DNA from: Magnetospirillum sp. SS-4
GTDB lineage: Bacteria; Pseudomonadota; Alphaproteobacteria; Rhodospirillales; Magnetospirillaceae
NCBI RefSeq assembly: GCF_902729425.1
Contig: NZ_CACVCH010000024.1
Coordinates: 1-64,000 of the forward strand
Length of the DNA stretch: 64,000 nt
Direction: 5' to 3'
Shown: one piece after another, positions 31,906 to 48,478 of the stretch
Position numbering within the stretch: position 1 is the first letter of the stretch
How the letters are laid out: each line of letters starts with the position of its first letter
Translations under genes and position numbers: made by a program
Notes under the pieces: model-generated
Told to the model about the DNA's origin: nothing
Databases searched by the model: none
The model's input: only the letters and a program-made list of their open reading frames with translations

Positions 31906-32178
31906 TCAGCCGAACAGATCGGAATGGGTGCCGGAGGCCGCCAGCACCAGTTCGTCTTCGGTTTGGTGCCAGATCAGCAGCCAGTCCGGTTCGATGTGGC
32001 ATTCCCAGCAGGGACTCCAGTTGCCGGACAGACGGTGTGGCCGATGCCGGACGGCCAACGGCTCACCGTTGACTAGGCACTCGACCACGGTCCAGAGCTT
32101 GTCGAGATTCTTGCCTCGTTTGGTCGCCGTCTTGAGATCGCGATCAAACTGCTTCGTGGTGCGAAGGCGCAGACTCAA
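31906..32178 (-). CDS. RelE/YafQ-type toxin
   Basis: The 90-residue product has TTKQFDRDLKTATKRGKNLDKLWTVVECL and HRLSGNWSPCWECHIEPDWLLIWHQ, then LVLAASGTHSDLFG, all standard for YafQ family mRNA interferases; His in the WECHIEPDW and GTHSDLF segments corresponds to the catalytic/binding His positions of YafQ. It cleaves mRNA on the ribosome. Its start overlaps the antitoxin stop by four bases. It lies on the strand opposite to the late operon, only six bases after the DUF6441 stop. Confidence 0.9.
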   Translation of the reverse strand: MSLRLRTTKQFDRDLKTATKRGKNLDKLWTVVECLVNGEPLAVRHRPHRLSGNWSPCWECHIEPDWLLIWHQTEDELVLAASGTHSDLFG

Positions 32179-32432
32179 CGGTGGGCTGCCTTCAGCGCAT
32201 CAAGACTCGACCACTCGGTCAGGTTCTCGCCGTCCATGGCATCCCGGAGAGCCGCCTGCGTGGCCTCGTTGGGAATGCGGACGGGGAACGGCAGTCCGTG
32301 ATGCAGGGTCACCTGACGATAGAACAGGGTGATCGCTTCGGTCGGCGTCAGACCGAGGGCGCCGAAAACGGCCTCGGCCTGGGCCTTGAGGTCGGGTTCG
32401 ACGCGGGCGCGGATCGATTCGGTCTTGGACAT
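32175..32432 (-). CDS. RelB/DinJ-type antitoxin
   Basis: The 85-residue product starts MSKTESIRARVEPDLKAQAEAVFGALGLTPTEAI, the ribbon-helix-helix N-terminus of RelB/DinJ antitoxins, and continues FYRQVTLHHGLPFPVRIPN. The C-terminal helix should neutralise the toxin encoded next. The pair autoregulates through the ribbon-helix-helix domain (family knowledge). AAGGAGCCCGCT precedes the ATG. As a leftward unit inside the rightward tail operon it is a likely insertion (moron) expressed in the lysogen. Confidence 0.9.
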   Translation of the reverse strand: MSKTESIRARVEPDLKAQAEAVFGALGLTPTEAITLFYRQVTLHHGLPFPVRIPNEATQAALRDAMDGENLTEWSSLDALKAAHR

Positions 32433-32482
32433 AGCGGGCTCCTTGGTTGCCCCATTATGTGCCTCATTCGGGGAACAATTCA

Positions 32483-32911
32483 ATGCCCAGCATCCGCGAG
32501 AAAATTCTGTCCGCCCTGCTGGCGCGGCTGGAGACCGTGCCCGATGCCACCGTCAGGCGGGAGGCGCCGCTGCCGGAAACGGTCCCCGCCGGAGGTCTGA
32601 TCATCCTGCGTGACGGCGATCCCGGCGACCCCGAGGTGGTGCTGTCGCCCGTCACCTATCTCTGGGAACACCAGACCGAGATCGAAATCATCCTCCAGCG
32701 CGGTCAGGACGACGATAGCGCTGCGCTGGATACCTTGTTGATGGCGGTTGGGAATGCCCTGGCCGCCGACCGTTCCCTTGGTGGTCTGGCGGAATGGCTG
32801 GATTGGGGTGCCCCCAAGACCTCGGGCCTCGTCATCGACGGGGCTGCTTCCTTACGCGGCGCAACGGTGCCGATCACCATCCATTACAGCAGCCCCGATC
32901 CGTTGGGCTGA
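32483..32911 (+). CDS. Tail terminator protein (gpU-like)
   Basis: The 142-residue product begins MPSIREKILSALLARLETVPDATVRR and has YLWEHQTEIEIILQRG, ALDTLLMAVGNALAADRSLGGLAEWLDW and ATVPITIHYSSPDPLG. The helix, beta sheet and LGGLAxWxxx pattern is that of gpU-like minor tail proteins that stop tail tube growth. It lies between the TA insertion and the tail tube gene, matching lambda order Z-U-V. The ATG overlaps the antitoxin upstream region. Confidence 0.8.
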   Translation: MPSIREKILSALLARLETVPDATVRREAPLPETVPAGGLIILRDGDPGDPEVVLSPVTYLWEHQTEIEIILQRGQDDDSAALDTLLMAVGNALAADRSLGGLAEWLDWGAPKTSGLVIDGAASLRGATVPITIHYSSPDPLG

Positions 32912-34627: not shown

Positions 34628-37603
34628 ATGGCCACAAAATCCGTCTCCATCCGCCTGTCCTTGCAGGACGGCGAAACCGTGCGCCGTACCCTGATCCAAC
34701 TGGGTAACGACGGCCAGAAGGCGTTGGCTCGGATCGAGGGTGCTGCACAGCCTGCATCCAAGTCGCTGCTGGCCATGAATGCCGCCAGCCAGGATATTCA
34801 GGGCGGCATGGCGGGGTTTGCTTCCCGGCTTGGCCCCATCGGCTCGGTGATGATGGCGCTGGGTCCGGCCGGGCTGGCGGCGGGTGCGGCCATCGGCTTC
34901 TTTGGCAAGGCCATGGTGGAGTCCACCATCAAGGTGGAAAGCCTGGAGGCCCGCCTCAAGGGTCTGGTCGGTGCCGCGGCCCTGACCGAAACCACCACCT
35001 ACCTCTATGCCCAGGCCCAGAAGACCGGCACCGCCCTGGAGACGGTGGTCGGAGCCTATTCCCGGCTGGCCGCGTTGCAGAAGGCCGGGATCATCACCAC
35101 TGGTGAATCCCGCTCCCTGTTGGAAGGCTTCCAGTCCACCGCCATTGCCTTGGGTGCGTCATCCGAGCAGTTGGAGCAATCCCTGTTCGGTCTGGCCCAG
35201 GGGCTGTCGTCGGGCACGCTCCGCGCCGAGGAACTCAACCAGATCGTCGAGCCCATGCCGGGGCTGCTGCAGGCTCTCGACCGGGCCGCCGCGCTGCCCT
35301 CGGGCGGCTTCCGCCAGATGGTTACCCAAGGCAAGGTGACGGCGGATTTTTTCCGCGACACCCTGATCAAGGCGCTGCGGGGCTTCGACGAAGCCGCCAA
35401 GGAAAGCGCCGACACCGCCGAGCGGTCCTTCACCCGCATGGCCAACGCCTGGCAGGGATTCACCAACGCCCCCTGGCTGCGCAAGGTTCTGTCGGGCGGC
35501 GCCAATGCCGGGGCGGCGACGCTGGAATCGCTGACGCCGGGGGAATCCACGGTGAAGTCGCGACTGGCCGATCTGGACCGGCGCATCGCCGCCCTGGGGG
35601 GCGAGCAGGCACTGGACAAGCCGTTGCCTGCCGGAACCCACAGTGTGGTGGTCCAGGCGGTCAGAGAGGAGAACGAGGAACTGCGCCGCCTGCTGGCCGA
35701 GCGCCAGGACGTCGCCGCCGACCTCGACGAGATCACCCGCAAGCGCGCGGGCATGGAAGCCCAGGCCAAGATGGAGCGCGACCGGGTCCGGGCCGAGCAG
35801 CGTGAGCCGACCTATATCGAGAAGTTGTCTGATCTTAAATTCGAGGTGGAATGGCAGGAGAGGCTCAATACGGCCCGTGCCGCCGGTAACGCGGAATTCT
35901 CCCGCACCAAGGCCCAATACGAGGCGGCCAAGGGCTTTCGCCAGATCGAAAAGGAGCTGTTCCAGCAAGGCGGCGTCTATCGCACCCAGCCCAAGGAACA
36001 GGAGATCAAGGATCTGCTGGCCCGCGAAGCCGAAGCCAAGGGGGCGGGGGAGATGTCCGCCCAGGCCCAGGCCGAGGTGCTGGGCCTGAACCTCCAGGCC
36101 CGTGGTCAGGAGCGTCTGGCCGAAGCAGCCCGCACCGGCGGGCAGGCCCAGGTCGATGCGGCGCGATCCGCCAAGGTGCTGGAGTTCGCCTTCAAGAACA
36201 ATGGTGCGGCGGTAGCCGAATACGACCGGGCATTGCGCCGCATCGATGCCGCCAAGCTGCTGGAGCAGAAGAATGGCCTGATCCGCACCCTGGGGCAGGA
36301 AGTCGCCGCCAATGACCGCCTCGCCGAGGCCGCCAAGGGATCGGTGGCTGACACCATTCTGGCGGAGCGCACCAACTGGCTGGCTGAACAGGCATCCAAG
36401 GGGCTGAGTGATGCCAATGGAGAACTGGCAGCCTCCTACGCACTGGTTCAGAAATCCCGCGCCAACAGCGAGGCCGCCCGTGCCGTCGCTGACCTGGAGC
36501 GCGAGATTGACGCCCAGGTTCGCCTGGCTGAGGCGGTGCGCAGCAGTGATCGAACCAAAGTCCGCGACGTCACCATCGACAATGATGTCGCCAAATTCGC
36601 CCGCAGTCACAAGCTGGCCGAGGACGATCCCAAACTCGATGAATACCGGGCGGCCCGCTCGCGCCAATATGGCGAAGCGGTCAAGGACGAGGCCCGCCAG
36701 ACCACTCTGGCCTATGACGCCACCCAGCGGTTTGCCGAGGAACTGGCCAAGCTGAACGAACAGCGGGCCAGCGGTGTTCTATCCGAGGAAGCCTATGCCC
36801 GCCGCTATCGGGAATTGGAGCAGGACAAACTGGCCGCCAGCCGCGACTGGCAGGATGGCGCCATCCGGGCGGTGCGGGCCTATGCCGACGAAGCCAGCAA
36901 CGCGGCGGCTTCGGCAGAGCGGGCCATGTCGGGAGCCTTGCGGGCCAGCGAGGATGCCTTCGTCAAATGGGCCATGACCGGCAAGCTGGCCGGGCAGGAT
37001 CTGTTCAACAGCCTAGCCGAGGAGGCTCTGCGGGCGGCGTGGCGCATGTCGGTGGTGGCGCCGCTGTTTGGGGGTGCCAGTGGCGGCCTCTTCGGCAGCC
37101 TGATCAGTGGCCTCGGTGGCTGGTTCTCCGGTGGTGGTGGTGGTGGCTCCGTCCCGGTCCCCGATACCGGAGCTTTCGCCATCGCCCATACCGGCGGCCT
37201 GATCGGTCTCGACCGGCTGGAAACCCGGTCCTTCGATCCGGCGGTGTTCATCGGCGCGCCTCGTTTCCATCGGGGCGGCCTGGTCCCCGGCGAGGTACCG
37301 ATCATCGCCCAGAAGGGTGAGGAGGTGCTGACGCGGGGCGATCCCCGTCATCGCTTCAACCTGCGCCCCCGCGACGATGCCCCGGTGATGGTCAGTGTGC
37401 CGGTCTCGGTCAATATCCAGACGCCCCAGGGCACCCAGGCCCGCACGGCGCAGCGCCGCGATTCCGGCGGCGGTCTGACGCTCGACATCATCGTCGAGCA
37501 GATCACCGACGCCATCTCCGGCGACATCGTCCGCGGCCAAGGCATCGCCCCGGTGCTGGAGCGCCAGTACGGGCTCAACCGCGCCAACGGGGCCTATCGA
37601 TAA
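34628..37603 (+). CDS. Tail tape measure protein (lambda gpH-like)
   Basis: The 991-residue protein sets tail length. It opens with SIRLSLQDGETVRRTLIQLGNDGQKALARIEG, has a hydrophobic segment IGSVMMALGPAGLAAGAAIGFFG (about residues 70-95), the tape measure domain with YSRLAALQKAGIITTGESRSLLEGFQ and LSSGTLRAEELNQIVEPMPGLL, a long coiled-coil middle (about residues 300-780), and a Gly-rich, hydrophobic C-terminus (LISGLGGWFSGGGGGGS) with a lambda gpH-like PEVxxxxGEEVLTRGDPRHRFN-type end. Length implies a tail of very roughly 150 nm if the usual scaling holds (inference). Confidence 0.93.
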   Translation: MATKSVSIRLSLQDGETVRRTLIQLGNDGQKALARIEGAAQPASKSLLAMNAASQDIQGGMAGFASRLGPIGSVMMALGPAGLAAGAAIGFFGKAMVESTIKVESLEARLKGLVGAAALTETTTYLYAQAQKTGTALETVVGAYSRLAALQKAGIITTGESRSLLEGFQSTAIALGASSEQLEQSLFGLAQGLSSGTLRAEELNQIVEPMPGLLQALDRAAALPSGGFRQMVTQGKVTADFFRDTLIKALRGFDEAAKESADTAERSFTRMANAWQGFTNAPWLRKVLSGGANAGAATLESLTPGESTVKSRLADLDRRIAALGGEQALDKPLPAGTHSVVVQAVREENEELRRLLAERQDVAADLDEITRKRAGMEAQAKMERDRVRAEQREPTYIEKLSDLKFEVEWQERLNTARAAGNAEFSRTKAQYEAAKGFRQIEKELFQQGGVYRTQPKEQEIKDLLAREAEAKGAGEMSAQAQAEVLGLNLQARGQERLAEAARTGGQAQVDAARSAKVLEFAFKNNGAAVAEYDRALRRIDAAKLLEQKNGLIRTLGQEVAANDRLAEAAKGSVADTILAERTNWLAEQASKGLSDANGELAASYALVQKSRANSEAARAVADLEREIDAQVRLAEAVRSSDRTKVRDVTIDNDVAKFARSHKLAEDDPKLDEYRAARSRQYGEAVKDEARQTTLAYDATQRFAEELAKLNEQRASGVLSEEAYARRYRELEQDKLAASRDWQDGAIRAVRAYADEASNAAASAERAMSGALRASEDAFVKWAMTGKLAGQDLFNSLAEEALRAAWRMSVVAPLFGGASGGLFGSLISGLGGWFSGGGGGGSVPVPDTGAFAIAHTGGLIGLDRLETRSFDPAVFIGAPRFHRGGLVPGEVPIIAQKGEEVLTRGDPRHRFNLRPRDDAPVMVSVPVSVNIQTPQGTQARTAQRRDSGGGLTLDIIVEQITDAISGDIVRGQGIAPVLERQYGLNRANGAYR

Positions 37604-37613
37604 AGAGGGGCCG

Positions 37614-38090
37614 ATGATCCGCTTTCCCGCCACCTTGCCCATGCCGCTGGCGGAGCCCTATGCGGTCAAGCCCGCCGATGGGGTGGTGCGCACCGACATG
37701 GAGCAGGGACCGGCCCGCCAGCGCCGAGAATTCACCCAAGTTCCCACCAAGATCCCGGTGAAGTGGCGCTTCACCGACGCCCAATACGCGGTGTTCGACG
37801 CCTGGTACCAGTGGAAGGGCAAGGCCGGGGCGGAGTGGTTCGTGATTCCGCTCAGGAGCGGTCTCGGCGTGATCGACCATGTCGCCCGCTTCACCAGACA
37901 GTACGAGGCCCCCTTGTCCTCCGGTGGATTCTGGCTGGTGACGGTGGAACTGGAGGTCCGCGACCGCCCGGTTCTGTCCGAGGCCGAACTCGACATCCTG
38001 CTCGATAGCTCCTGGAGCGACCTGTCCGGTGCCGTCACCGGCCTCGATACCGTCGCCAACATCCAGTGGCCCGATTCTTTCGGAGCGTGA
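37614..38090 (+). CDS. Minor tail protein
   Basis: The 158-residue product begins MIRFPATLPMPLAEPYAVKPADGVVRTDMEQG and has EFTQVPTKIPVKWRFTDAQYAVFDAWYQWKG and GFWLVTVELEVRDRP. It is a beta-rich tail-tip protein, in the position of lambda gpM/gpL downstream of the tape measure. The F-T-x-x-Q-Y-A-x-F-x-x-W-Y pattern recurs in minor tail proteins of many alphaproteobacterial siphophages. Exact lambda equivalence is uncertain. Confidence 0.75.
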   Translation: MIRFPATLPMPLAEPYAVKPADGVVRTDMEQGPARQRREFTQVPTKIPVKWRFTDAQYAVFDAWYQWKGKAGAEWFVIPLRSGLGVIDHVARFTRQYEAPLSSGGFWLVTVELEVRDRPVLSEAELDILLDSSWSDLSGAVTGLDTVANIQWPDSFGA

Positions 38091-38093
38091 TCC

Positions 38094-39164
38094 ATGACCA
38101 TCAAGGACGATCTCCTCGCCGCCACCGCCAAGGCCGGCGGGGCGGCGCTGATTCTGCATGACGTCGCCCATGGCCCCGCCACGGGAGCGGGGAGCACCGT
38201 GGTGACCGGCAATGGTCAGGTCAAGACGGCAGCCAAGGTGGTGGCCGATATCGAGGCCGACATTACCGCCAGGATCGGCTCCATTGACGGGGCCATCGCC
38301 AGCAGCGCCGCCGATGCCGTCGCGGCCGCATTGTCCGCCGCTAATGCCCAGGCCAGCGAGTTGGCAGCCGCCGCTTCGGCCAGCGCTGCGCAAGTGGCCA
38401 AGGTCACCTGGAAAGGACCGTGGTCCGCCGCCACCGCCTATGCCGTCCATGACGCGGTCTCCTTAAACGGCTCGTCCTATGTCGCCATCGCGCAGAACAT
38501 CAACCAGCCGCCGCCCGATGCGGCCCATTGGCAGGTGCTGGCCGCCAAGGGGCTCGACGGCATCGGGGCCGGCGACATGCTGGCCGCCCAGAATCTCGCC
38601 GACCTTCCCGACAAGGCCGCCGCCCGGAGCAATCTCGGCCTTACCATCGGCTCCCATGTTCAGGCCCATGATGCTGAACTGGACGCCATCGCGGGTCTCG
38701 CCAGTGCAGCCGACACCATGGCCTATTTCACCGGGTCAGGCACGGCGGCGTTGACCGGACTGACCGCCGCCGGCCGGGCCTTGCTTGACGATGCCGATGC
38801 GGCGGCCCAGCGGGCCACCCTGGGTCTGTCCGATGCCGCCACCACCACGGTGGCGGCCATTCGGGCCGGGGTGGACGTTTCCAGCAAGGTGGCCAAGGCG
38901 GGGGACACCCTGAGCGGCACACTGACGGGGCCGCAGTTCAAGACCAGCGGCAGCACCAGTGGGTCCACCGGATTCAAGATCGCCGACGGTTCCGATCTCG
39001 CCGCCTTGTTCAAGGCCGCCAGCTATACGGCGGTGCAGAGCGGCACCGGGGCGGGCTACAGCACGGTCACCATCAGCGGCAATGCCATCACGGTGACCAC
39101 CAACTGCAACTTCGCCCCCAACTGCAATTACCAGCCCGCCTGCAACTGTAATTGCTGCTGCTGA
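38094..39164 (+). CDS. Tail-fibre-like protein with Asn/Cys-rich C-terminal tail (candidate radical SAM substrate)
   Basis: The 356-residue protein has an Ala-rich helical N-terminus (about 1-100), a small Trp/Tyr module [22 protein letters not shown] (about 108-140, like binding modules of phage fibres), tail-fibre-type repeats with [17 protein letters not shown] and [18 protein letters not shown], and a beta region [19 protein letters not shown]. It ends abruptly with an Asn/Cys tail: residues 337-356 include [10 protein letters not shown] and ACNCNCCC, seven Cys (338, 344, 350, 352, 354-356) and six Asn. The rest of the protein has no Cys. A radical SAM/SPASM enzyme is encoded two genes downstream; I infer this tail is its modified site. 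A metal-binding tip is the alternative. Confidence 0.8.
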
Positions 39165-39174
39165 GGATGCCGCC

Positions 39175-40005
39175 ATGCTGGTCGCCTTTACCCGCTTTGC
39201 CGATATCTCGGCGCCCTGCGGCATCGTCGCCGCCATCAGGCCTGACGGCTTCACCATCTCCACCTACCGCATGTTCATGGCCGAGGGCGAGGTTCCGGGG
39301 GCGGTGCCGGTGGATGGAGGCGATCTCCATGCCGGCCTCGCCGGAACGACGCTGGCGGTCACCAAACCCCAGCACTTCACCTGGGCCTCGCTCATTGGAC
39401 TGGCCCAAGGCCACGACCATGCCTGCATCGTCTTTCCGCTGATCTGCCGCCATGTGGGGGCACGAGGCGGCGGACCCGACACCTCATGGCAGGTGGGCCA
39501 GCCCTACAACCGCACCAGGGAGACCATGGCCGCCCGGCGTGGCCCCAGGGAGCACGCGGCGCGGACCCAGGAACACACAATGCTGCATTTCCATGTTCCC
39601 TGGGCCGGGGCATCTCCCGACGACTGCGCCCTGCATCTGATCCTTCAGGATGGCTTCCTGCCGCTGGTGACGGGGGCCGAAATCGTCGAGCAATCCATCG
39701 AAGCCACAATGCGGGCGGTGATGCCGGTGCTGGTTCTGCCCGAACGGGCCGAAGTGCCGAGCGAGGGCTATGCCTCCGTGGCGCTGGAGGCACGGCGGGC
39801 GGGAAAGCGTCTGAAGGGGGCCTCCGTCACCGCCCATCTGGAGACCACCGGCGGCTATCTGCCCCGCCAGCGGGTGGCGCTGACCGATGGCGCCGCCGCC
39901 ATCAAGGTGGGGGCGCTCGGGCTGGAACCGGGCGAGAGCTTCAAGGTCAAGGCAGGGTTCCGCTTCTTCCCCGGCATGGCCGAGATCATTTGCGAGGTGG
40001 TGTGA
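39175..40005 (+). CDS. Unknown tail-tip protein between fibre and radical SAM genes
   Basis: The 276-residue product begins MLVAFTRFADISAPCGIVAAIRPDGFTIS. The N-terminal ~130 residues are a mixed region with a possible metal-binding stretch (GHDHACIVFPLICRHVGARGGG). The C-terminal ~140 residues look like a beta-sandwich fibre or Ig-like module (VSVALEARRAGKRL-like, VTAHLETTGGYLPRQRVALTDG, KVKAGFRFFPGMAEIICEV). It is ten bases after the fibre stop and overlaps the radical SAM start by one base (TGATG), so all three are co-translated. Role could be fibre partner or adaptor; no family recognised. Confidence 0.7.
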   Translation: MLVAFTRFADISAPCGIVAAIRPDGFTISTYRMFMAEGEVPGAVPVDGGDLHAGLAGTTLAVTKPQHFTWASLIGLAQGHDHACIVFPLICRHVGARGGGPDTSWQVGQPYNRTRETMAARRGPREHAARTQEHTMLHFHVPWAGASPDDCALHLILQDGFLPLVTGAEIVEQSIEATMRAVMPVLVLPERAEVPSEGYASVALEARRAGKRLKGASVTAHLETTGGYLPRQRVALTDGAAAIKVGALGLEPGESFKVKAGFRFFPGMAEIICEVV

Positions 40006-41285
40006 TGTTCAGACTGACCCTGCGGCAGCCGGACGGAGAAACCTTCGGCCTTATCCTCGACATCCATGGCGGCAAGCTCATGGATCAGGAGGGGCGTCGG
40101 ATCGATCTCTCTCCCCTGGGTGCCGCCTACCTGGATGGCGGCAGGTTCGCCGTCGCTCCCTCCACCTCGCCGATCCAGGTTGCCCCCAAGAGCCGCCGGG
40201 TGGAGCGGCTGCGCCTCCAACTCGGTCTCAAATGCAATTTCGCCTGTTCCTACTGCATGCAGGCGGCAGATCGCGATGGAGATATCCGGACGTCCGGCAC
40301 CGCCGAAGGCTTCCTGGCCGGCCTCGACTGGCTGGACGGCGCGCCGGGAGAGATCGAGTTCTGGGGCGGCGAGCCGCTGGCCTACTGGAAGATCCTGAAA
40401 CCCCTGGCCGAGGGGTTGCGGACCCGCTTTCCCGAGGCGGTGTTCAAGCTCATCACCAACGGCTCCTTGCTGGATAAGGCCAAGGTGGACTGGCTGGACC
40501 GGCTTGGCTTCGTGGTGTCCATCTCCCATGACGGTCCCGGCCAGCACCAGCGTGGCCCCGATCCCTTCGAAGATCCCGAGGCGGCGGAAGCGATCCGCCT
40601 GCTGTTCCGCACCCTCGGCTCCGGCCGCTGCTCGTTCCTGTCGGTGCTGACCATGGCCCATCACAGTCCGGCCGCCCTGGTGGCGTATTTCGTGGACAGG
40701 GTCGGCGAAGATGTTCAGGTCTCCATCGAGGGCATGGTGACGCCCCACGACGTAGCCGGAATCCTGATGTCGCCCATGAGCGAGGGTGATCATCGGCGGG
40801 TGCGTCGGACCCTGTTCGATGAATTCCGCATGCCCAGCGTGTTTCATCGCAACCTTGTGCTGTCCCCTCTGCAATCCCTCCTGCGCCAGTTCGCCACCGG
40901 CATGCCGTCGGAAGCCAGAGGCCAGAATTGCGGCATGGACCGTCCCGGCCATCTCGCCGTCACCTTGGGCGGCCAAGCCCTGGTCTGCCAGAACGTCAAC
41001 CAGGACAAGGTGATCGGCAACGTCCACGACTTCGATTCCATCCGCCTCACCCACAGCACCTCCTGGCACCATCGCCCCGAATGCCATGCCTGCCCGGTGC
41101 TGGCCACCTGTGGCGGCTCCTGCATGATGGTCGAAGGAATGGAACGCAAAGTTGCCTGTGACAACGCCTTCAGCCTGGGTCTCGCCCGGCTGGCCCTGCT
41201 GCTCAATGTTCTGACTGGGGCGGAACTGCTCCGCATCGAGGGCGAGCGTATCCGTTTCCCCGGCATCACCCACATCGATTTCTGA
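40005..41285 (+). CDS. Radical SAM/SPASM peptide maturase in phage tail operon
   Basis: The 426-residue protein has an N-terminal ~70-residue domain (MFRLTLRQPDGETFGLILDIHGGKL) that may bind substrate, then the radical SAM cluster Cys77-X3-Cys81-X2-Cys84 (LKCNFACSYCMQA), EIEFWGGEPLAYWKIL (the GGEPL motif) and KLITNGSLL. The C-terminus is a SPASM domain: Cys309, Cys328 (ALVCQN), then Cys360-X2-Cys363-X5-Cys369-X3-Cys373 (ECHACPVLATCGGSC) and Cys385, able to hold auxiliary 4Fe-4S clusters. SPASM enzymes mostly modify ribosomal peptides. Lying between tail genes and downstream of a Cys-rich fibre C-terminus, it probably modifies that fibre. All cluster Cys are intact, so the enzyme should be active. 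Confidence 0.93.
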   Translation: MFRLTLRQPDGETFGLILDIHGGKLMDQEGRRIDLSPLGAAYLDGGRFAVAPSTSPIQVAPKSRRVERLRLQLGLKCNFACSYCMQAADRDGDIRTSGTAEGFLAGLDWLDGAPGEIEFWGGEPLAYWKILKPLAEGLRTRFPEAVFKLITNGSLLDKAKVDWLDRLGFVVSISHDGPGQHQRGPDPFEDPEAAEAIRLLFRTLGSGRCSFLSVLTMAHHSPAALVAYFVDRVGEDVQVSIEGMVTPHDVAGILMSPMSEGDHRRVRRTLFDEFRMPSVFHRNLVLSPLQSLLRQFATGMPSEARGQNCGMDRPGHLAVTLGGQALVCQNVNQDKVIGNVHDFDSIRLTHSTSWHHRPECHACPVLATCGGSCMMVEGMERKVACDNAFSLGLARLALLLNVLTGAELLRIEGERIRFPGITHIDF

Positions 41286-41288
41286 GCC

Positions 41289-41915
41289 ATGCCCGATCCC
41301 GCTCTCGAAGAGGCGATCCGCGAGGCTTATGCTTCGTGCCCGTCCAACGCCATTCCGCTCCACACCATGGAACTGCGCCATCCCGCCTTCATCGATGACA
41401 ACGGCAACCCCACCGCTGTCCGGGTGGTGCGCAATTACGAGGACGAGGTCACCTGGCGCGAACGAGGTGGCGCCGAGATCGCGGCCCTGCTGGATGCCAT
41501 GACCCCCGAGGCCCGCAGCCGGGTCGGGCTGGTGGCCCGCCTGGAACCCGATGCCCCGGTCAATGCCGGCCAGATGGTGGCCTTCATCGCGCTGGCCTTC
41601 GATTTCCAACTGCCCGAGGTGAGTTCCGCCCCGGTGCCGGAACTCACCGTCACCATGGATAATGTCGGCCGCGAGCTGATGGAGCCGCTCGAAGCCGCCG
41701 CCACCTCCCTGGTCCGTATCGAGGTCACCTACCGGCCCTATCTCGACATCGACCTTGATGGCCCGCAGATGGACCCGCCGCTGACCATGACCCTGGTCCA
41801 TGTCAACTGCACCGCCACCCAGATCACCGCCCGCGCCCAGATGTCCCAGATCGGCAACAAGGCCTTTCCCTGGCGCACCTATACCCAGCGCTGCTTTCCG
41901 GGGCTGGGCGGCTGA
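41289..41915 (+). CDS. DUF1833 family tail protein
   Basis: The 208-residue protein begins MPDPALEEAIREAYASCPSNAIPLHTMELRHPAF and has FIALAFDFQLPEVS, VTMDNVGRELMEPLEAA and LVRIEVTYRPYLD, a DUF1833 pattern found in minor tail proteins of lambdoid phages, roughly the gpL position. It follows the radical SAM gene by three bases, showing that the enzyme gene is fully embedded in the tail operon. It is probably part of the tail-tip complex. Confidence 0.85.
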   Translation: MPDPALEEAIREAYASCPSNAIPLHTMELRHPAFIDDNGNPTAVRVVRNYEDEVTWRERGGAEIAALLDAMTPEARSRVGLVARLEPDAPVNAGQMVAFIALAFDFQLPEVSSAPVPELTVTMDNVGRELMEPLEAAATSLVRIEVTYRPYLDIDLDGPQMDPPLTMTLVHVNCTATQITARAQMSQIGNKAFPWRTYTQRCFPGLGG

Positions 41916-41924
41916 CAGGTTCTT

Positions 41925-42043
41925 GTGGGCTGCTGCCCACACCCGCTTGGGGCAAAGCCCCAAACCCCATTCCTTTTGAAAATCAAATGAGGTCTGGAGC
42001 ATCGCTCCAGCCCGGTTTGGGCGGGAGCCCAACCGCGAAGCGG
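41925..42043. repeat. Compound palindromic element (five consecutive hairpins)
   Basis: The 140-base gap between the DUF1833 and NlpC/P60 genes is made of short hairpins: GTGGGC/GCCCAC (41925-41940), TTGGGGC/GCCCCAA (41947-41963), CTGGAGC/GCTCCAG (41994-42010), TTGGGC/GCCCAA (42017-42032) and CCGC/GCGG (42033-42043), with the core TTTTGAAAATCAAATGAGG in the middle. A second element with the same order of parts occupies 44828-44947. This looks like a dispersed REP-like or RNA-processing element in the late operon. Confidence 0.6.
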
Positions 42044-42055
42044 AGCATCTCCACC

Positions 42056-42463
42056 ATGTCCCACTGGGCCATGCCCTATATCGGCCAGCCGTGGTCGAAG
42101 CACGGCCAGGGGCCGGACGCCTGGAACTGCTGGAGCTTCTTCCGCCACGTCCAGCAGGCCCATTTCGGGGTGGAGACTCCGGCGGTGCCCTATGCCGACG
42201 ATCTGCTGGTGCTGGCGCGGCTGTTCCGCGATCACCAGGAGCGTGGATTCTGGCAACCGGTGACCGCCTATCGGGAGGGCGACGGAGTGATGATGCGCAC
42301 CGCCCGTTATCCCATCCATGTGGGGATGTGGCTGGAGGTGGATGGCGGCAGGGTGCTGCATTGCGCAGCCGGATCGGGGGTGGTGTGCCAGTCCCGGCGC
42401 GATCTGGCCGCCAATGGCTGGCGGATCGACGGGGTCTACCGTCACCGGGGGACCGCATCATGA
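42056..42463 (+). CDS. NlpC/P60 family tail-tip hydrolase (lambda gpK-like)
   Basis: The 135-residue product has the NlpC/P60 catalytic set: Cys25 in GPDAWNCWSFFRHVQ and His88 in YPIHVGMWLEVDGG, with LHCAAGSGVVCQSR near the end. These papain-like amidases cut peptidoglycan peptides, and the lambda gpK equivalent sits just upstream of gpI/J, as here. It probably helps DNA entry through the cell wall. GGAG lies 15 bases upstream of the ATG at 42056. It overlaps the gpJ-like gene by ATGA. Confidence 0.88.
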   Translation: MSHWAMPYIGQPWSKHGQGPDAWNCWSFFRHVQQAHFGVETPAVPYADDLLVLARLFRDHQERGFWQPVTAYREGDGVMMRTARYPIHVGMWLEVDGGRVLHCAAGSGVVCQSRRDLAANGWRIDGVYRHRGTAS

Positions 42464-44820
42464 GGGCGCGCGTCACCCTGGTGGCGGATGCCTTCAATCC
42501 GCTGCGCTCCCTGCAGGTGGTCGAGGTCTCCGAACCCCTGACCATCCGCGCCTTCCTGGACGGTCGCGGCATCGAGGAATTTCCGGTCCCCACCATCTGC
42601 CTGCGCAATGGCCGCCCGCTGCTGCGCCGCCATTGGGCCGGGACAATCATCGATCATGACGACATCGTCGCCTTTGTCGCCCAGCCGTTGGGCGGCGGTG
42701 GGGGCGGCGGTGGCAAGAACCCGCTGACCACTGTGCTGATGGTGGCGGTGATGGTCGTGGCCATGGTGCTGGGCCAGTACTATGTCGGGCCGATGCTGGC
42801 TTCGTCCCTGGGGGTCACCAGCGCCGCCGGCATCGCCACCGTGGGCGCCATCTCGACGGCGGCCATCGCCTCGGTGGGCATGATGGCGGTGGGCGCCCTG
42901 GTCTCGGCACCCAGTCCCGCCACGCCCTCGCTCAATTGGGGCGGTGGCGGCGGAGTGGCGCCGTCTCCCACCTACAGCCTGACCGCCTCGGGCAATCAGG
43001 CCCGGTTGGGTCAGCCGATCCCCGAGATTTTCGGCCGTCACAAGGTGGTGTTCGATCTCGCCGCCACCCCCTACCAGGAATACCTGGCCGGGGAGCAATA
43101 CCTGTTCCAGCTTCACTGCATCGGGGTGGGTCAATACCGGCTCGATGCCCTGATGATCGACGACACCCCGTTGGCCTCGTTCGAGGAAGTCCAATATCAG
43201 GTCGTCCCGCCCGGTGCCGCCGTCACCCTGATGGATGCCTGGGTGGTCACAGCCGTCGAGGTGGCGGGCCAGGAGATGAAAGGCCCCAACCAGCTGACCA
43301 ATGGCGAGACCGGCTGGGTCGGTCCCTTCGTCGCCAATCCCGCCGCCACCACCGCCCATCACATCGGCATCGACGTGGTGTTCACCAACGGCCTCTATTA
43401 CGCCAATAATTCCGGCACCCTCGACCCCAAGACGGTGACCTGGGAGGTATGGGGGCGGCGGATCGATGATCTCGGCACCGCGCTGGGGGACTTCATCCTG
43501 CTGGCCGCCGAGACCTATACCGCCGCCACCAACACCCAGATCCGGTTGTCCTTCAAATATCCGGTGGCGTCGGCCCGTTGGGAGGTCAGGCTCCGCCGCA
43601 CCAACGACCGCGACCAGGATGGCCGCACCGCCCACGAAATCCGCTGGGGCGAGATGCGATCCTATCTCGACGGTTCCCCCGATTACGGCGACGTCACCCT
43701 ACTGGCGATCAAGATGCGGGCCACCGACAATCTGAGCCAACGTTCAAGCCGCCTGATCAACGGCATCGTCACCCGCAAGCTTCCCATCTGGTCGCTGGCC
43801 ACCGGCTGGTCGGAGCCGGTCCCCACCCAGGCCATCGCCCCGGTGGCGGCCTATATCATGCGCGCCGCAAACGGCGCGCAACTGGCCGATACCCGCCAGG
43901 ACCTGGACATGCTGTGGCGGTTGCACGCCGTCTGGGAGGCGCGTGGCGACCGCTTCAGCGGCGTGTTCGACACCACCACCACCGCCTGGGAGGCCCTGGT
44001 CAAGGTGCTGCGGACGGGACGCGCAGCCCCCTACCAGCAGGGCGGCATCGTCCGCTATATCCGCGACGAGCCCCGCACCCTGCCGGCGGCGCTGTTCAAC
44101 GGCCGCAACATCGTCCGCGGCAGCTTCGCCATCGAATACGTCATGCCCGGCGAGGACACCGCCGATGCGGTGACGGTGGAGTTCTTCGACGAAATCACCT
44201 GGAAGATCGCCGAAATCACCGCCGCCCAACGCGAAGGCGCCATCCGGGTGCTGACCCCATCCGAGATGGTCAACACCCCGCCGGAAAAGCCGGGCCGGGT
44301 GCAGATGTTCGGCATCACCAATCGCGACCATGCTGGCCGCGAGGCCTGTTTCCTGGTCGCCTGCAACATCTATCGCCGCCGCCTGCCCACCTGGAAGACC
44401 GAGTTGGACGGCATGATCCTGTCCTATGGTGAGCTGGTCGCAATCTCCCATCCCATGCCGGCCTGGGGTCAGGGCGGCGAGGTGGTGGAGTGGGACGAGT
44501 CCGCCGCCACGCTCACCCTATCCGAGCCGGTGCGCTGGAGCGACGGCGTCGCCCATTTCATGGCGCTGCGCCGTCGCGACGGGCGTCTCGATGATCCGGT
44601 GGAGATCGAGCCAGCCCCCGGCGGCGATCCCTTCCAGGTCCGAGTGCTCGACCCGCTGCCCTTCACCCCCGACACCGGCGGCGAGCGCGAACGCACCTAT
44701 TACGCCCTCGGCCCCGGCGCCACCTGGGCCCAGCGCGTCCTGGTGCGATCACTGCGCCCCCGCTCGCGTCAGGTCGAGATATCGGGAATCTGCGAGGACG
44801 ACCGGGTTCATGTGAATTGA
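42460..44820 (+). CDS. Host specificity/tail tip protein (lambda gpJ-like, TipJ)
   Basis: The 786-residue protein starts with an N-terminal ubiquitin-like part (VADAFNPLRSLQVVEVSEPLTIRAFLDG), a Gly-rich hydrophobic stretch (PLTTVLMVAVMVVAMVLGQYYVG, about residues 88-145), then the gpJ core: GNQARLGQPIPEIFGRHKVVFDLAATPYQEY, VGQYRLDALMIDDTPLASFEE, AATNTQIRLSFKYPV and a tip domain with RLPTWKTELDGMILSYGELVAISHPM. This is the TipJ layout. It determines host binding together with fibres. It is shorter than lambda gpJ (1132 residues) and lacks the long C-terminal fibronectin repeats. Confidence 0.9.
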   Translation: MRARVTLVADAFNPLRSLQVVEVSEPLTIRAFLDGRGIEEFPVPTICLRNGRPLLRRHWAGTIIDHDDIVAFVAQPLGGGGGGGGKNPLTTVLMVAVMVVAMVLGQYYVGPMLASSLGVTSAAGIATVGAISTAAIASVGMMAVGALVSAPSPATPSLNWGGGGGVAPSPTYSLTASGNQARLGQPIPEIFGRHKVVFDLAATPYQEYLAGEQYLFQLHCIGVGQYRLDALMIDDTPLASFEEVQYQVVPPGAAVTLMDAWVVTAVEVAGQEMKGPNQLTNGETGWVGPFVANPAATTAHHIGIDVVFTNGLYYANNSGTLDPKTVTWEVWGRRIDDLGTALGDFILLAAETYTAATNTQIRLSFKYPVASARWEVRLRRTNDRDQDGRTAHEIRWGEMRSYLDGSPDYGDVTLLAIKMRATDNLSQRSSRLINGIVTRKLPIWSLATGWSEPVPTQAIAPVAAYIMRAANGAQLADTRQDLDMLWRLHAVWEARGDRFSGVFDTTTTAWEALVKVLRTGRAAPYQQGGIVRYIRDEPRTLPAALFNGRNIVRGSFAIEYVMPGEDTADAVTVEFFDEITWKIAEITAAQREGAIRVLTPSEMVNTPPEKPGRVQMFGITNRDHAGREACFLVACNIYRRRLPTWKTELDGMILSYGELVAISHPMPAWGQGGEVVEWDESAATLTLSEPVRWSDGVAHFMALRRRDGRLDDPVEIEPAPGGDPFQVRVLDPLPFTPDTGGERERTYYALGPGATWAQRVLVRSLRPRSRQVEISGICEDDRVHVN

Positions 44821-44983: not shown

Positions 44984-45310
44984 ATGCTCGAGCAGCAACC
45001 TTCGCCCGAGGTCAAGACCCTGGTCTCGGGGCTGGCCGGGCTGATTCCCACCGCCATGCTCGCCCGCTTCCTGTGGCATCACCGGCTGGTACGCCTGGGC
45101 CAGCGCCGGTTCTGGTCGCGCGACCTGTTGTGGGAATGCCCGACCGCCGCCTTTTCGGCGGTGCTGGGCGGCGGAGTCGCCGCTCATTTCGCCCTCGGCC
45201 TGATGGAGACCCACGCGGTGGTCGGCATCTGCGCCTGGCTGGGGCCGCGTGGCCTCGAAGTGGCGCTGAGCCGCTTCGTCGCCCGCTGCACTCCCCCCGA
45301 TAAGGACTGA
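44984..45310 (+). CDS. Putative phage holin (class II-like)
   Basis: The 108-residue product begins MLEQQPSPEVKTLVSGLAGLIPTAMLARFLW and has hydrophobic segments at about residues 13-28, 50-68 and 72-88 (AAFSAVLGGGVAAHFALGLM, AVVGICAWLGPRGLEVAL). Two or three short membrane segments, small size and position directly before an endolysin gene are typical of a holin or holin-like protein. The basic middle (RLGQRRFWSR) is compatible with inner-membrane topology. Family name is not recognised with certainty. Confidence 0.7.
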   Translation: MLEQQPSPEVKTLVSGLAGLIPTAMLARFLWHHRLVRLGQRRFWSRDLLWECPTAAFSAVLGGGVAAHFALGLMETHAVVGICAWLGPRGLEVALSRFVARCTPPDKD

Positions 45311-45314
45311 TCCC

Positions 45315-45935
45315 ATGCTGACCACAGACGTCTTGCGTGCCACCGTCACCGGGGCGCGGTCCACCGATCTTGACCGTTTCGCGGCGCCGCTGGCCGCTGC
45401 CTGCGCCGAATGGGGCGTCGACACCCCGTTGCGGCTGGCCGCCTTCCTGGCCCAGATCGCCCACGAGAGCGGCCAATTGCGCAATATGGCCGAGAACCTG
45501 AACTATTCTGCCGAAGCCCTGCTGCGGGTCTTCCCCCGCCATTTCGATGCAGCAGGTGCCGAGGCCTATGCCCGCCAGCCGGAGCGCATCGCCGCGCGGG
45601 TCTACGCCAAGCGCCTGGGCAATGGCGACGAGGCCTCTGGCGACGGCTGGCGCTATCGCGGGCGCGGCCTGATCCAGGTCACCGGGCGCAGCAATTATGC
45701 TGCTTGCGGCGAGGCACTGGGGATCGGGCTGGTCCATGTCCCGGAGATGCTGGAACAGCCCGGCCCCGCCGCCCGTTCGGCCGCGTGGTTCTGGCACAGC
45801 AACGGCCTTAATCGCTTTGCCGATGCCCGCAACATCGAAACCATCACCCGGCGCATCAATGGCGGCCTCACCGGACTCGAAGACCGCAAGGCCTGCTACG
45901 CCCGTGCCTGCGCTGCCCTGGAGGTGTCCCCATGA
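45315..45935 (+). CDS. Endolysin, glycoside hydrolase family 19
   Basis: The 206-residue protein has the GH19 lysozyme-like core: AAFLAQIAHESGQLRNMAENLNYSAEALLRVFPRHF in two parts, with Glu of AHESG as the likely acid, YRGRGLIQVTGRSNY, and WFWHSNGLNRFADARNIETITRRINGG near the end. These are hallmark segments of phage GH19 endolysins that cleave peptidoglycan glycan strands. No signal peptide is evident, so it should depend on the holin for release. It overlaps the next gene by four bases. Confidence 0.93.
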   Translation: MLTTDVLRATVTGARSTDLDRFAAPLAAACAEWGVDTPLRLAAFLAQIAHESGQLRNMAENLNYSAEALLRVFPRHFDAAGAEAYARQPERIAARVYAKRLGNGDEASGDGWRYRGRGLIQVTGRSNYAACGEALGIGLVHVPEMLEQPGPAARSAAWFWHSNGLNRFADARNIETITRRINGGLTGLEDRKACYARACAALEVSP

Positions 45936-46531
45936 CCCTGCTCGATCTCCTCGGCGATGCCGCCGCCATCGCCGCCAATCCCATCGCCGGTCTCGCCAAG
46001 GTGGCGCTGGACGTGGCACCGGACATTGCCGGCCTGTTCGGTGATGATGCCGAGAAGGCGGTCAGCAAGCTGGCCGACAGTGTCCGCGCCATCACCGGCA
46101 CCGACGACCCCGCCCAGGCTCGCGAGGCGCTGGCCGATCCCACCCTGGTGTTCCAACTGCGCTCCCAGGCCCAGGCCTTCGCCCATGAGGAGCGGATGCA
46201 GCAGATGGCCGGTGCGCTGACCACGCTCACCGCCACCCTGGCCGATCGCCAGAACGCCCGTGCCCGCGACAGCGAATTCATCAAGGCCGGGCGCAGCAAC
46301 ACTCGCGCCAACGTGCTGCTGGTCACCGCCGGATTCGGCATCGTCGGTGGCATCGGCTTCATGGTGTTCGGCCACGTCGATGGCAACACCGCCGTCGGTG
46401 GCTGCATCATTTCCGTCGTCACCTTGCTGGCGGGCAAATTCGCCACCGCTTTCGATTTCGAGTTCGGCGGATCGGCGGATTCAGAGCAGACCCGCACCCT
46501 GCTAGCGCAGGCGCCGCCCATCGGCAAATAA
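45932..46531 (+). CDS. Second holin-like protein (GTA_holin_3TM type)
   Basis: The 199-residue product begins MTLLDLLGDAAAIAANPIAGLAKVALDVAPDIAGLFG, then a helical stretch (EERMQQMAGALTTLTATLADRQNARARDSEFIK) and two hydrophobic segments near residues 125-146 and 150-170 (VLLVTAGFGIVGGIGFMVFG, AVGGCIISVVTLLAGKFATAF). The NARARDxxFI and NxRANxLxVxAxxGI pattern fits the three-TM holin of gene transfer agents and related prophages. Together with the protein at 44984 it gives two candidate holins around the endolysin; one may act as antiholin. Confidence 0.75.
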   Translation: MTLLDLLGDAAAIAANPIAGLAKVALDVAPDIAGLFGDDAEKAVSKLADSVRAITGTDDPAQAREALADPTLVFQLRSQAQAFAHEERMQQMAGALTTLTATLADRQNARARDSEFIKAGRSNTRANVLLVTAGFGIVGGIGFMVFGHVDGNTAVGGCIISVVTLLAGKFATAFDFEFGGSADSEQTRTLLAQAPPIGK

Positions 46532-46552
46532 CAGATCGGATTTCGTATCGAC

Positions 46553-46590
46553 GCGGCCGACCGGGGGAAACCCTGGTCGGCCGCTTTTTT
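46553..46590 (+). terminator. Rho-independent terminator of the late operon
   Basis: GCGGCCGACC (46553-46562) pairs with GGTCGGCCGC (46575-46584), a perfect ten-base stem, followed by six T (46585-46590). It lies 22 bases after the last lysis gene, so it ends the long late transcript. Confidence 0.9.
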
Positions 46591-46928
46591 GCGTTCTGGT
46601 GGGCGCAGGGGATCTTCGCTTCCACCGTCCCTTTCACGCCAGCGCCTGGCGCTGCCGTGATTCCTGCCGGTTCTGTCCCCGATGTCATCCGCCGACACAC
46701 CATCCTGGATGGCCCTTTTGGGCCGGAAGCGGAAGGGTGGGTTTGAGAGACGGGGCTATATAGCTGACATTCGAATTGAACGCAGTGTCACCGGAACCAC
46801 CAGGAGTGGGCCGGACGCAGACGTTCGTGACCAGCTTAACACGTCCATCAGTTGACGTGGGCGATGACAGAGTCGCGTTTTTGGTATAGGGTGCGTCCCA
46901 CTGCGGAACCGCACTGGGCAAGGGGGAT
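46591..46928. other. Non-coding gap with no supported gene
   Basis: These 338 bases separate the late operon from the cargo. I see no convincing gene on either strand; the only notable structure is GGCCC-TTTT-GGGCC near 46713. The base composition is less GC-rich toward 46750-46900. A prophage attachment site could lie here or further right, but without the left end no direct repeat can be matched. Confidence 0.4.
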
Positions 46929-47705
46929 ATGCTGGACGCGGACGACATTAAGCTCAGCATCGAAATCAAGAACAGCAGGCCCGTCGAGCTGCTGGATTTG
47001 ACCGACGCCTTCTTGAGCCTGTCAGAGCAATACCAGCGCTTCGCACAGCGAGGTGACTACGCCGTCAACGGCTCCGAGACCCGGCTCTTCATCAAGGAAA
47101 TCCGGTCGGGCAGCATCATCGCCGACCTCGTCTCCATGGCACCCCAGGCAGCATTCCTGGTTGGGCAGTCCAAAGACCTCGTCGACTTCGCCAAAGACAT
47201 CAAGGGCGTCTACGAGTTCTTTCTCGGCAAGCACGGCGACGACCCGAATCGGACGGCTGCCGAACTGCGGGACTGCGCGCAGATCTTGCAGCCGGTCGCC
47301 AAGGACGCGGGGTCGCAAATCAACCTGTCGGTGACCGTCAACGGCGGCACAATGTATCAGGTCATCATGGACTCGACCCAAGCCAACGCTATTCAAAACC
47401 GGGTGGCCAACCACGTCGCCATGCAGCGCGAAGTGGCAACCGGTGTCCGGGAGAAGCAGACCTTCTACTGGTACCAGGCACGCAACGACGTCCGCTCGTC
47501 GTCAGGTGACAAGGGCGTCATCGAGGCCATTTCCCCCAGCCCGGTGAAAGTCATTTTCGAGAACGAGCGCGCCAAGCTCGACATGATCAGCGACAGGCTC
47601 TTCCAACTCGCCTTCATCGTCGATGTCGATGTCCAGACCATCAACGGTAAGCCCGCTACCTACAAGGTGCTCAACGTCCACGAGACCTTCGAAAAGCCGG
47701 AATAG
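46929..47705 (+). CDS. Unknown cargo protein, partner of Abi_C protein
   Basis: The 258-residue soluble protein begins MLDADDIKLSIEIKNSRPVELLDLTDAFLSLSEQYQRF and has YAVNGSETRLFIKEIRSGSIIADLV, a helix around SKDLVDFAKDIKGVYEFFLGKHG, and YWYQARNDVRSSSGDKGVIEAISPSPVKVIFENERAK in parts. The helix-strand-helix layout with a central IRSGSIIADLV segment recalls short-effector-type proteins seen beside defence genes, but I do not recognise a named family. It precedes an Abi_C-domain gene by 11 bases on the same strand, and I infer a two-gene defence or exclusion unit. Confidence 0.65.
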   Translation: MLDADDIKLSIEIKNSRPVELLDLTDAFLSLSEQYQRFAQRGDYAVNGSETRLFIKEIRSGSIIADLVSMAPQAAFLVGQSKDLVDFAKDIKGVYEFFLGKHGDDPNRTAAELRDCAQILQPVAKDAGSQINLSVTVNGGTMYQVIMDSTQANAIQNRVANHVAMQREVATGVREKQTFYWYQARNDVRSSSGDKGVIEAISPSPVKVIFENERAKLDMISDRLFQLAFIVDVDVQTINGKPATYKVLNVHETFEKPE

Positions 47706-47716
47706 GATAATGCCAG

Positions 47717-48478
47717 ATGGGTGACTTCAAGCACTCGGACATGCGGGTCGTCGAACAAGCCTTCCAGATTGACCCGGGCTACGTCCTGAACTTCTCCGAC
47801 CGAACCTTTGCCGACTTCTTCGAAGACGAGTTCCGCATCCACATCGACGACCCGAAATACCGGGCCAACGGCACCTCTAAGATGAACCGCCTGCGGACGT
47901 TCGTGAGGCTGGAAGACCCGGCGACGGTCGCCAAGGTCCTGCGCGGCCTGTGGCAGTACCGGGTGGACAACCTGCCACATTTGCCCAGGGACATTGAACC
48001 ACGGTTCTTCGACCTGATAGCCCGGATGGAAGGCAGCACCGAGGTCGCGCGCACCGATGCCATCGAGCGGTTCGTGCCCGATCCGACACTCGACGAGCTC
48101 GTTGCATCCATCGAGCGGGACATCCAGGCTAACGCGCCGGACGCAGCCTTGGACAGGCTGCACACATACTGCTCCAAGAAGTTCGGTCATCTGCTCGACG
48201 TCCGGGGCATCGCCTGGGAACGCTCCGACCCCCTCCACAGCCGCGTCGGCAAATACGTCAAGGCGCTCAAGCAGGAGGTGGAACTGCGCGAGATGACCGA
48301 GCAGATCATCAAGGGGGCGTTCGCCGTCTTCGACAAGTTCAACCACGTCCGCAACAACGCCAGCTTGGCCCACGACAACGAGCTCGTCGATAAGGCGGAG
48401 GCGCGCTTCATCTTCGATTCGGTCAGCGCGTTCCTCCGCTTCATCAAAAGTGTGGACACGATCCGGTTCGGGGAGTGA
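47717..48478 (+). CDS. Abortive infection (Abi_C domain) protein
   Basis: The 253-residue product begins MGDFKHSDMRVVEQAFQIDPGYVLNFSDRTFADFF. The first ~90 residues resemble the AbiJ-like N-terminal region (FADFFEDEFRIHI, then YRANGTSKMNRLRTFV). The C-terminal part has FDKFNHVRNNASLAHDNELVDKAEARFIFDSVSAFLRFIKSV, the Abi_C pattern: R-x2-x2-LAHDN helix pair close to HEPN-type folds. Such proteins occur in abortive infection modules and may act as RNases or dimerisation units. It is the second gene of the pair starting at 46929 and probably protects the lysogen from other phages. Confidence 0.75.
   Translation: MGDFKHSDMRVVEQAFQIDPGYVLNFSDRTFADFFEDEFRIHIDDPKYRANGTSKMNRLRTFVRLEDPATVAKVLRGLWQYRVDNLPHLPRDIEPRFFDLIARMEGSTEVARTDAIERFVPDPTLDELVASIERDIQANAPDAALDRLHTYCSKKFGHLLDVRGIAWERSDPLHSRVGKYVKALKQEVELREMTEQIIKGAFAVFDKFNHVRNNASLAHDNELVDKAEARFIFDSVSAFLRFIKSVDTIRFGE

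Follow-up and report, generated by a model that had tools for sequence, protein, structure and literature searches.

Among described radical SAM/SPASM enzymes, CteB-type maturases have Cys-rich substrates, QhpD/PeaB (the quinohemoprotein amine dehydrogenase maturase) acts by crosslinking one subunit of a larger functional protein, and anSME acts on one residue of a large protein. Proteins of the Hint-domain family, in turn, cleave themselves at the Cys of that domain. Here we analyze a radical SAM/SPASM gene that lies two genes behind a tail-fibre-like gene with a Cys/Asn-rich 3′ end, in a 64,000-nucleotide stretch of Magnetospirillum sp. SS-4 (contig NZ_CACVCH010000024.1, positions 1 to 64,000, forward strand), hereafter called the window. 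The closest sequence family is phrog_1802 (expect value (E) 3e-54, residues 59-415), a 'radical SAM domain-containing protein' cluster that holds gp030 of Achromobacter phage JWF and its counterpart in phage 2-1. Both phages resemble the window in their gene order of a fibre with an Asn-Cys (NC) run, a small gene and the enzyme, but phrog_1802 is a sequence cluster without an assigned function, for which we found no link to NC-rich fibre tails.

The described systems each resemble the locus in part. CteB and the thioether-forming SPASM maturases (SCIFF, ranthipeptide and sactipeptide types) provide the nearest PDB fold and have the SPASM Cys array in common with the window enzyme, but the latter lies far below the NCBIfam maturase cut-offs, has no Pfam-detectable recognition domain, and has as its candidate substrate the end of a virion protein rather than a small secreted peptide. 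QhpD/PeaB is a weak match (TIGR03906, 40.5 bits against a cut-off of 453) and a cellular system, not a virion system. The anSME fold is near (Z 20.0) and the JWF enzyme was deposited under that name (KP202971), but the score is 27 bits against a cut-off of 349 (TIGR03942) and the candidate substrates here carry many Cys. Hint autoprocessing proteins (Pfam Hom_end_hint) have a counterpart in some phage fibres in which an NC run abuts a Hint-like Cys; here, however, the domain is part of tail fibres whose genes neighbour a radical SAM gene, and the window's own fibre is without Hint.

Searching open-licence PMC full text, a scope outside which preprints and most subscription papers fall, we found no account, among the top-ranked papers, of radical SAM enzymes acting on fibre tails. 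The available parts of the reports on a marine phage carrying 12 radical SAM genes (PMC5332604) and on Campylobacter phages with 11-12 such genes, taken as metabolic (PMC2853527), make no link to fibre tails, and neither does that of jumbo phage S13, in which radical SAM and 2-oxoglutarate (2OG)-Fe(II) proteins are listed together (PMC11898562). In the text on phage Lumi, a relative of JWF, the terms 'radical SAM' and 'Hint' are absent (PMC9959647).

Results

The radical SAM/SPASM gene and a gene for an NC-tailed protein are paired in both directions, that is, when loci are collected by the enzyme and when they are collected by the tail. In the window, the proposed substrate is a tail-fibre-like protein of 356 residues (38094..39164, + strand) whose last 20 residues (337-356; 39102..39161, +), the proposed modified core, hold 7 Cys and 6 Asn, while residues 1-336 contain no Cys at all; comparable tails occur at related loci. 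The next gene encodes a conserved, beta-rich 276-residue protein with a C-terminal immunoglobulin (Ig)-like domain (39175..40005, +) and overlaps by one base (tgATG) the start of the gene for the 426-residue radical SAM/SPASM enzyme (40005..41285, +; PF04055, E 5.1e-9), the proposed fibre-tip maturase. The fibre coordinates, residue counts, active-site Cys and gene spacing given in the preliminary description were all read again correctly in the sequence, and the tail-fibre-like nature that it had assigned to the first protein agrees with its matches among the PHROG tail fiber families, of which phrog_5073 is the best (E 2.4e-12).

A scan of viral contigs with seven enzymes gave at least 80 loci, and all enzyme-first counts are among the matches listed. 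When the enzymes were thinned to 95% identity and required to have at least 2.5 kb of upstream sequence (n = 59, L012 contributing two; the copies from the window's own genome, L001-L003, were left out, and so was L007), a looser tail rule showed that 56/59 had a gene with an NC-rich tail within 6.5 kb upstream on the same strand. Three enzymes are exceptions: L050, whose Hint-type tail escaped the rule, L062, in which the tail is on a protein encoded downstream, and L047. Within 3 kb, in a comparison that includes L007, 49 of 58 enzymes have a comparable tail upstream on their own strand, versus 2 of 58 on the other strand. The downstream figures are 2 of 48 on the enzyme's strand, in each case no more than a CCC end, and 1 of 48 on the other (upstream versus downstream, Fisher p 2e-18). 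A stricter rule (5 Cys in 14 residues, C-terminal or preceding a Hint motif) places a tail upstream in 50/60 versus 7/60 on the opposite strand and 1/38 downstream, in a set of 60 that includes a few near-duplicates, L011 (the window's viral copy) and two entries for L012. One of these 50 positives, L049, is a false frame, yet a genuine Hint-type tail is present there. In eight of the ten misses, L013 among them, a tail is present but is shorter, lies further away or downstream, or is of the Hint type, and L085, tail-less at first under this rule, has its tail 4.6 kb upstream. Two or three NC-tailed open reading frames (ORFs) follow one another at nine loci.

The tail-first scan was blind to the enzyme and used a DNA pattern, (AAYTGY)x4, that codes for NCNCNCNC; it gave at least 118 loci, and its counts are likewise among the matches listed. 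At 89 of the 118 the run ends no more than 12 residues from the C-terminus of an ORF of at least 60 residues (the C-terminal class), and 76 of these have at least 1.5 kb of downstream sequence. An enzyme, called at a profile score of at least 100 on the same strand, is found within 3.5 kb at 64 of the 76. Among the remaining 12, three have an enzyme at 4.4-5.4 kb, and the other nine, searched as whole records, all match radical SAM with E <=1e-27. Four of these nine records (L108, L114, L149 and L173) make up a divergent group with short ORFs and DDYxTxCNCNCNC-type ends on contigs of 15-161 kb, each with three or four radical SAM matches that are distant from the window enzyme. Thirteen further C-terminal tails have less than 1.5 kb downstream; seven of them were searched as whole records and three have an enzyme.

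Chance neighbours, wrong frames or low-complexity C-termini could in principle produce such a pattern, and AAYTGY tandem repeats do fall in false frames or within unrelated ORFs, as at the 29/118 loci outside the C-terminal class. Yet only one of the 14 such loci with at least 1.5 kb downstream has an enzyme (L216), and that case looks real; among four non-C-terminal records searched whole, L105, L184 and L187 are without the enzyme and L111 has it, beside a run that resembles a real tail. The control repeat (AAYAGY)x4, coding NSNSNSNS, has an enzyme at 0/120 loci, although the repeat is C-terminal in only 4/120. The runs are also not simple DNA repeats: synonymous codons are mixed, and of the 72 different 24-mers that fit the pattern for NCNCNCNC, only 3 are perfect hexamer repeats. 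Given the two-way test and the control loci, strands and regions, we rejected chance or artefact, which we regard as hardly credible.

The preliminary description had suggested checking whether the two genes always occur together. Run both ways, the check bears this out with few exceptions. A pattern that this description had named as refuting, the enzyme without a tail, is seen in L047 and in L007, where the fibre region is evidently deleted, and L136, L153, L154 and L160 have a tail and no enzyme in the record, each with less than 1.3 kb of sequence behind the tail. In L007 (5051-7281), a prophage in a Phaeospirillum metagenome-assembled genome, a tail-gene start like that at 32.8-33.9 kb of the window is joined, apparently through a deletion, to the 3′ portion of the gene for the Ig-domain protein; no fibre gene lies between, and the radical SAM gene is intact. 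An assembly error is a less likely cause.

In 79 tailed proteins, taken without thinning, the C-terminal 24 residues contain on average 6.6 Cys (3-11) and 5.4 Asn (0-11), and the residue between paired Cys (n = 360) is Asn in 69% (250), Ala in 11% and Asp in 11%. Judging from these sequences, the constant feature of the tails is Cys, and Tyr/Ser can replace Asn almost wholly. The bodies vary. Fifty-nine tailed proteins match 121 PHROG families. Of the best 25 families, none of which matches more than 9 tailed proteins, 16 carry the annotation tail, tail fibre, straight fibre or collagen-like minor tail. Clustering gave 11 sequence clusters of bodies, collagen-like and Hint-bearing types included, with 69/84 in one single-linkage cluster that is perhaps joined through repetitive stretches, so that the number of truly unrelated bodies is uncertain.

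A Cys-rich tip could instead bind a metal or an iron-sulfur cluster, or be disulfide-bonded, with the enzyme aiding metallation or acting elsewhere in the tail. Dense Cys arrays readily bind metals, phage spike tips with metal are known, and His-rich spike tips bind iron, all of which would suit such a tip. However, Cys-rich metal sites have no need of a radical SAM enzyme, and still a gene of this type is present in all 76 C-terminal NC-tail records with at least 1.5 kb downstream, and the alternating or YCS-type spacing would give no fixed ligand geometry. We therefore consider a metal-bearing or disulfide-bonded tip unlikely.

The enzyme belongs to phrog_1802 and, more broadly, to the radical SAM/SPASM superfamily, and lies by score outside the listed named maturase families. 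Its translation contains the radical SAM core CxxxCxxC (Cys77/81/84; 40233..40256, +), invariant in alignments A1 and A3, and a seven-Cys SPASM array of the form C..Gx4C..CX2CX5CX3C..C (Cys309, 328, 360, 363, 369, 373 and 385; 40929..41159, +), invariant across the 62 rows of alignment A3; the enzyme is complete, as had been claimed. The SPASM profile TIGR04085 scores 28.3 bits, slightly over its cut-off of 27. Among the best 25 of 42 NCBIfam families, none of the equivalogs for maturases of ribosomally synthesized and post-translationally modified peptides (RiPPs; nif11, geopeptide, PapB, SCIFF, CcpM and others) reaches its cut-off, and the top score is 66.2 bits against 518.7 (TIGR04064). 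The predicted structure has a mean predicted local distance difference test (pLDDT) score of 95.2 and, among folds ranked high by Foldseek, is closest to CteB (5wgg; Z 23.9, root-mean-square deviation 4.0, 355 residues aligned), followed by ChlB (Z 21.3), anSMEcpe (20.0), TigE (19.0) and EpeE (14.4); the top Foldseek ranks go to the same proteins. This confident model supports both the SPASM assignment and nearness to thioether-forming maturases, and the fold favours the formation of thioether or related bonds at Cys. The alignments to CteB and TigE start at model residue 1, their ranges giving end points only, and the N-terminal strands of the model (2-27) may correspond to the N-terminal domain of these proteins.

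Alternating residues bring a second reaction to mind. Polytheonamide-type peptides have alternate D-residues and a beta-helical fold, and a peptide epimerase (EpeE/PoyD-like) could flip the alternate residues of NCNC to the D form, giving a beta-helical needle with no crosslinks. The high share of Asn at the interleaved positions of CxC, which is a two-residue period in most tails, fits this, and EpeE structures are among the fold matches. But it is Cys and not the two-residue period that is constant: YCSYCSYCTCACSDCSC and SYCSYCSYCSYC have partly a three-residue period and almost no Asn. The nearest folds, moreover, are CteB and ChlB rather than epimerases. An epimerase thus seems improbable, to about the same degree as a metal tip.

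Some fibres carry further sequence behind the tail. In Achromobacter phages JWF and 2-1, with the enzyme two genes behind the fibre, the NC run (NCNCDCNCNCSC in JWF) is followed without a gap by a Hint domain, and a run directly before a Hint-like Cys also occurs in L018, L021, L046, L049, L050, L078 and L082. In the four proteins run against the Pfam Hint profile, the match begins with, or next to, the final Cys of the NC run (L009 (JWF) 307/308, L018 311, L021 225/226, L046 316), and the gathering score is exceeded by the JWF protein only. If these domains cleave at that Cys as in the Hint family, the NC run would be left as the C-terminus, as in the other fibres. A third architecture (L062 8419-9306; L113 44-943, − strand; L214) has the NC run followed by a domain beginning (K/S)(I/V)ICxxL; in L062 and L113 this domain has about 165 residues and no Pfam match, and its gene lies downstream of the enzyme.

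Other genes recur at the loci. Among 104 loci, NC-pattern-found ones included, and with profiles built from members of the same loci, the family of the 276-residue protein is present at 81/104 versus 0/120 controls. Its model is beta-rich (pLDDT 92.9), and the C-terminal Ig-like domain resembles domains of adhesins and glycosidases; solved relatives exist for this domain only, at Foldseek TM-scores of about 0.2-0.3, and over the whole length the matches are to phage proteins that are unnamed or lack characterisation. A family of 2OG-Fe(II) oxygenases, not in the window, occurs at 44/104 loci (38 upstream of the enzyme on the same strand) versus 2/120 controls. Of 25 members, 19 match PF13759 at E <=0.01; the best E is 8.2e-10, and the first member falls under the gathering score. 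In alignment A6 H110 and H180 are invariant and D116 is nearly so; we take these positions to be metal-binding residues. A second radical SAM gene lies within 4 kb at 13/104 loci. With two oxidative enzyme types beside the same tail, a multi-step tailoring route is plausible.

The frequency of the Ig-domain family also suits the idea that the enzyme modifies that protein, or another such as a baseplate protein, and that the tail is linked to it through a common, transferable host-recognition module. At five loci (L119, L121, L124, L204 and L207), however, a gap of 12-22 bases, with no gene in it, separates the NC-tailed gene from the enzyme, although an Ig-domain gene elsewhere at these loci was not looked up individually, and the tail is the feature common to varied bodies. 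Modification of another operon protein is therefore doubtful, and slightly more so than an epimerase or a metal tip.

The host genome encodes four members of the enzyme family: that of the window, two in tandem on contig C52 and one on contig C60. The C52 pair (45273-47885) are full-length tandem radical SAM/SPASM paralogues behind a fibre tail of the Tyr-Cys-Ser type. The fibres end in YCSYCSYCTCACSDCSC on C52 and in NCNCNCMG on C60, and each locus has a relative of the 276-residue gene before its enzyme or enzymes. The window fibre and the C52-type fibre of viral contig L012 are 77% identical (alignment A7), with wholly different tails that are both Cys-rich. A body that is kept and a tail that shifts, beside a conserved enzyme, are what would be expected of a modified core.

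A host gene was considered and rejected: in an even sample of the phylum, a match at E <=1e-50 is found in 1 of 398 genomes, the window's own. Among close relatives 6 of 40 genomes match at E <=1e-25, the window's own counted, and so sparse a scatter is as expected for a phage gene. Plasmids give merely weak matches to the JWF enzyme (16 records, 20-28% identity). A tblastn search of phage records with the enzyme matched 51, with more than 35% identity only in three Achromobacter records (JWF, 2-1; 78-80% query coverage). An NC tail was not seen in the flanks examined of five other matched phages (Erwinia, Thermus, Campylobacter and two faecal clones).

Two phages have different repeats beside radical SAM genes. 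In Erwinia phage Wellington (MH426724; L224 6410-10253), gp182 (136 codons including the stop) has 23 Cys, mostly in Cys-Ser/Gly-Gly repeats, and sits just upstream of the radical SAM genes gp179 and gp178, an analogous but different pair of repeat and enzyme. In Thermus phage Cumys (PQ109079; L225 4940-8170), the tail-region protein gp13 ends in numerous His-x-Asp repeats; the radical SAM gene gp12 follows directly, its product bears a similar His-x-Asp repeat at the C-terminus, and a DUF483 gene is next.

The window locus is part of a prophage region, since a 45-kb viral contig of IMG/VR carries an identical enzyme. All genes of the tail run are on the + strand: a tape-measure protein (34628..37603; PF20155 E 5.3e-39, PF09718 E 2.3e-21), a virion structural protein (37614..38090; phrog_384 E 2.3e-47), the fibre, the 276-residue protein and the enzyme, then a DUF1833 minor tail protein (41289..41915; PF08875 E 4.9e-33, phrog_396), which starts 3 bases behind the enzyme stop at 41285, an NlpC/P60 tail protein (41987..42463; PF00877 E 1.4e-6) and a J-like tail tip attachment protein (42460..44820; PF13550, PF24801, phrog_469 E 6.2e-131). 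Two small ORFs lie amid the tail genes on the − strand (31906-32483) and resemble a toxin-antitoxin pair of the YafQ/DinJ (RelE/RelB) type.

Discussion

The radical enzyme gene and the NC-tailed fibre gene are almost never apart, which suggests that tailed phages chemically rebuild the tips with which they contact their hosts. A phage virion-maturation system, in which the radical SAM/SPASM enzyme modifies the Cys-rich tail of the fibre and a stapled tip results, is in our judgement the probable explanation. We consider it very likely that the enzyme modifies the tail; that the product is a set of thioether crosslinks is only narrowly favoured, and the tip may serve adsorption or particle stability. 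In such a system the fibre would be made with a short, variable, Cys-rich C-terminal tail, on which the phage's own enzyme would act, most likely by bonding the sulfur of Cys to carbon atoms of nearby residues, in many cases Asn, so that the fibre would end in a small, covalently stapled tip. The Ig-domain protein is probably a partner of the tip or a chaperone that presents it. In other phages the oxygenase may oxidise the same tail, the second radical SAM enzyme may also act, and a Hint domain right after the tail may cleave itself and expose the tail as the C-terminus.

The locus would then work like a RiPP maturation pair, with a specific SPASM enzyme, a variable Cys-rich C-terminal segment and co-directional genes. 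The fibre body is conserved and its tail variable and Cys-rich, next to the enzyme, but the body is a large structural protein. It would correspond to a RiPP leader, and the tail to the core, and cleavage would not be required.

Several points weigh against this explanation. The tails terminate large structural proteins, unlike most RiPP precursors, and a RiPP recognition element is not found on the enzyme by Pfam at E 0.1. In the models, closeness to CteB leaves the reaction undecided, with sulfatase maturases scoring nearly as high. The radical SAM and SPASM Cys are kept in 106/106 non-redundant full-length members (204 profile matches, 165 at a score of at least 300, 160 full-length, 106 at 95% identity), but this retention is partly ascertainment, given that the members counted are full-length and high-scoring. 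The tail-first set was picked by the strictest repeat, its contigs are partly common to the enzyme-first test, and once similar tails are removed an enzyme (score at least 100) lies within 3.5 kb at 34 of 45 tails, not at all of them. Five of the nine records searched whole have divergent matches only (L108, L114, L149, L173 and L185), with enzyme profile scores of 41-146, and that of L161 is 132. In L047 the enzyme is present and an NCxCxC-coding pattern was not found across the entire 31.6-kb record. The accessory-gene counts, finally, carry the limit of their same-locus profiles.

The enzyme itself is a new branch of a known superfamily. Opinion is evenly balanced on a broader form of the idea, in which a widespread and unrecognised pathway of tailed phages uses a SPASM enzyme, often with an oxygenase, a second radical SAM enzyme or a Hint domain, to staple the Cys-rich ends of varied fibres, as a chemical alternative to the metal-capped spike in touching or piercing the surface of the host. 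The same idea may have evolved elsewhere with other repeats beside radical SAM genes, such as Cys-Ser-Gly in the Erwinia phage and His-x-Asp in the Thermus phage.

If the enzyme does staple the tails, fibres would bear enzyme-made, non-natural chemistry at the place where the host is touched. Structural models based on gene sequences would miss this chemistry, which would also be absent from recombinant fibres produced without the enzyme. The pairs of enzyme and Cys-rich substrate would form a large natural collection for peptide-stapling work. Virion assembly would join the roles of SPASM enzymes, and phrog_1802 and its neighbours would gain a function.

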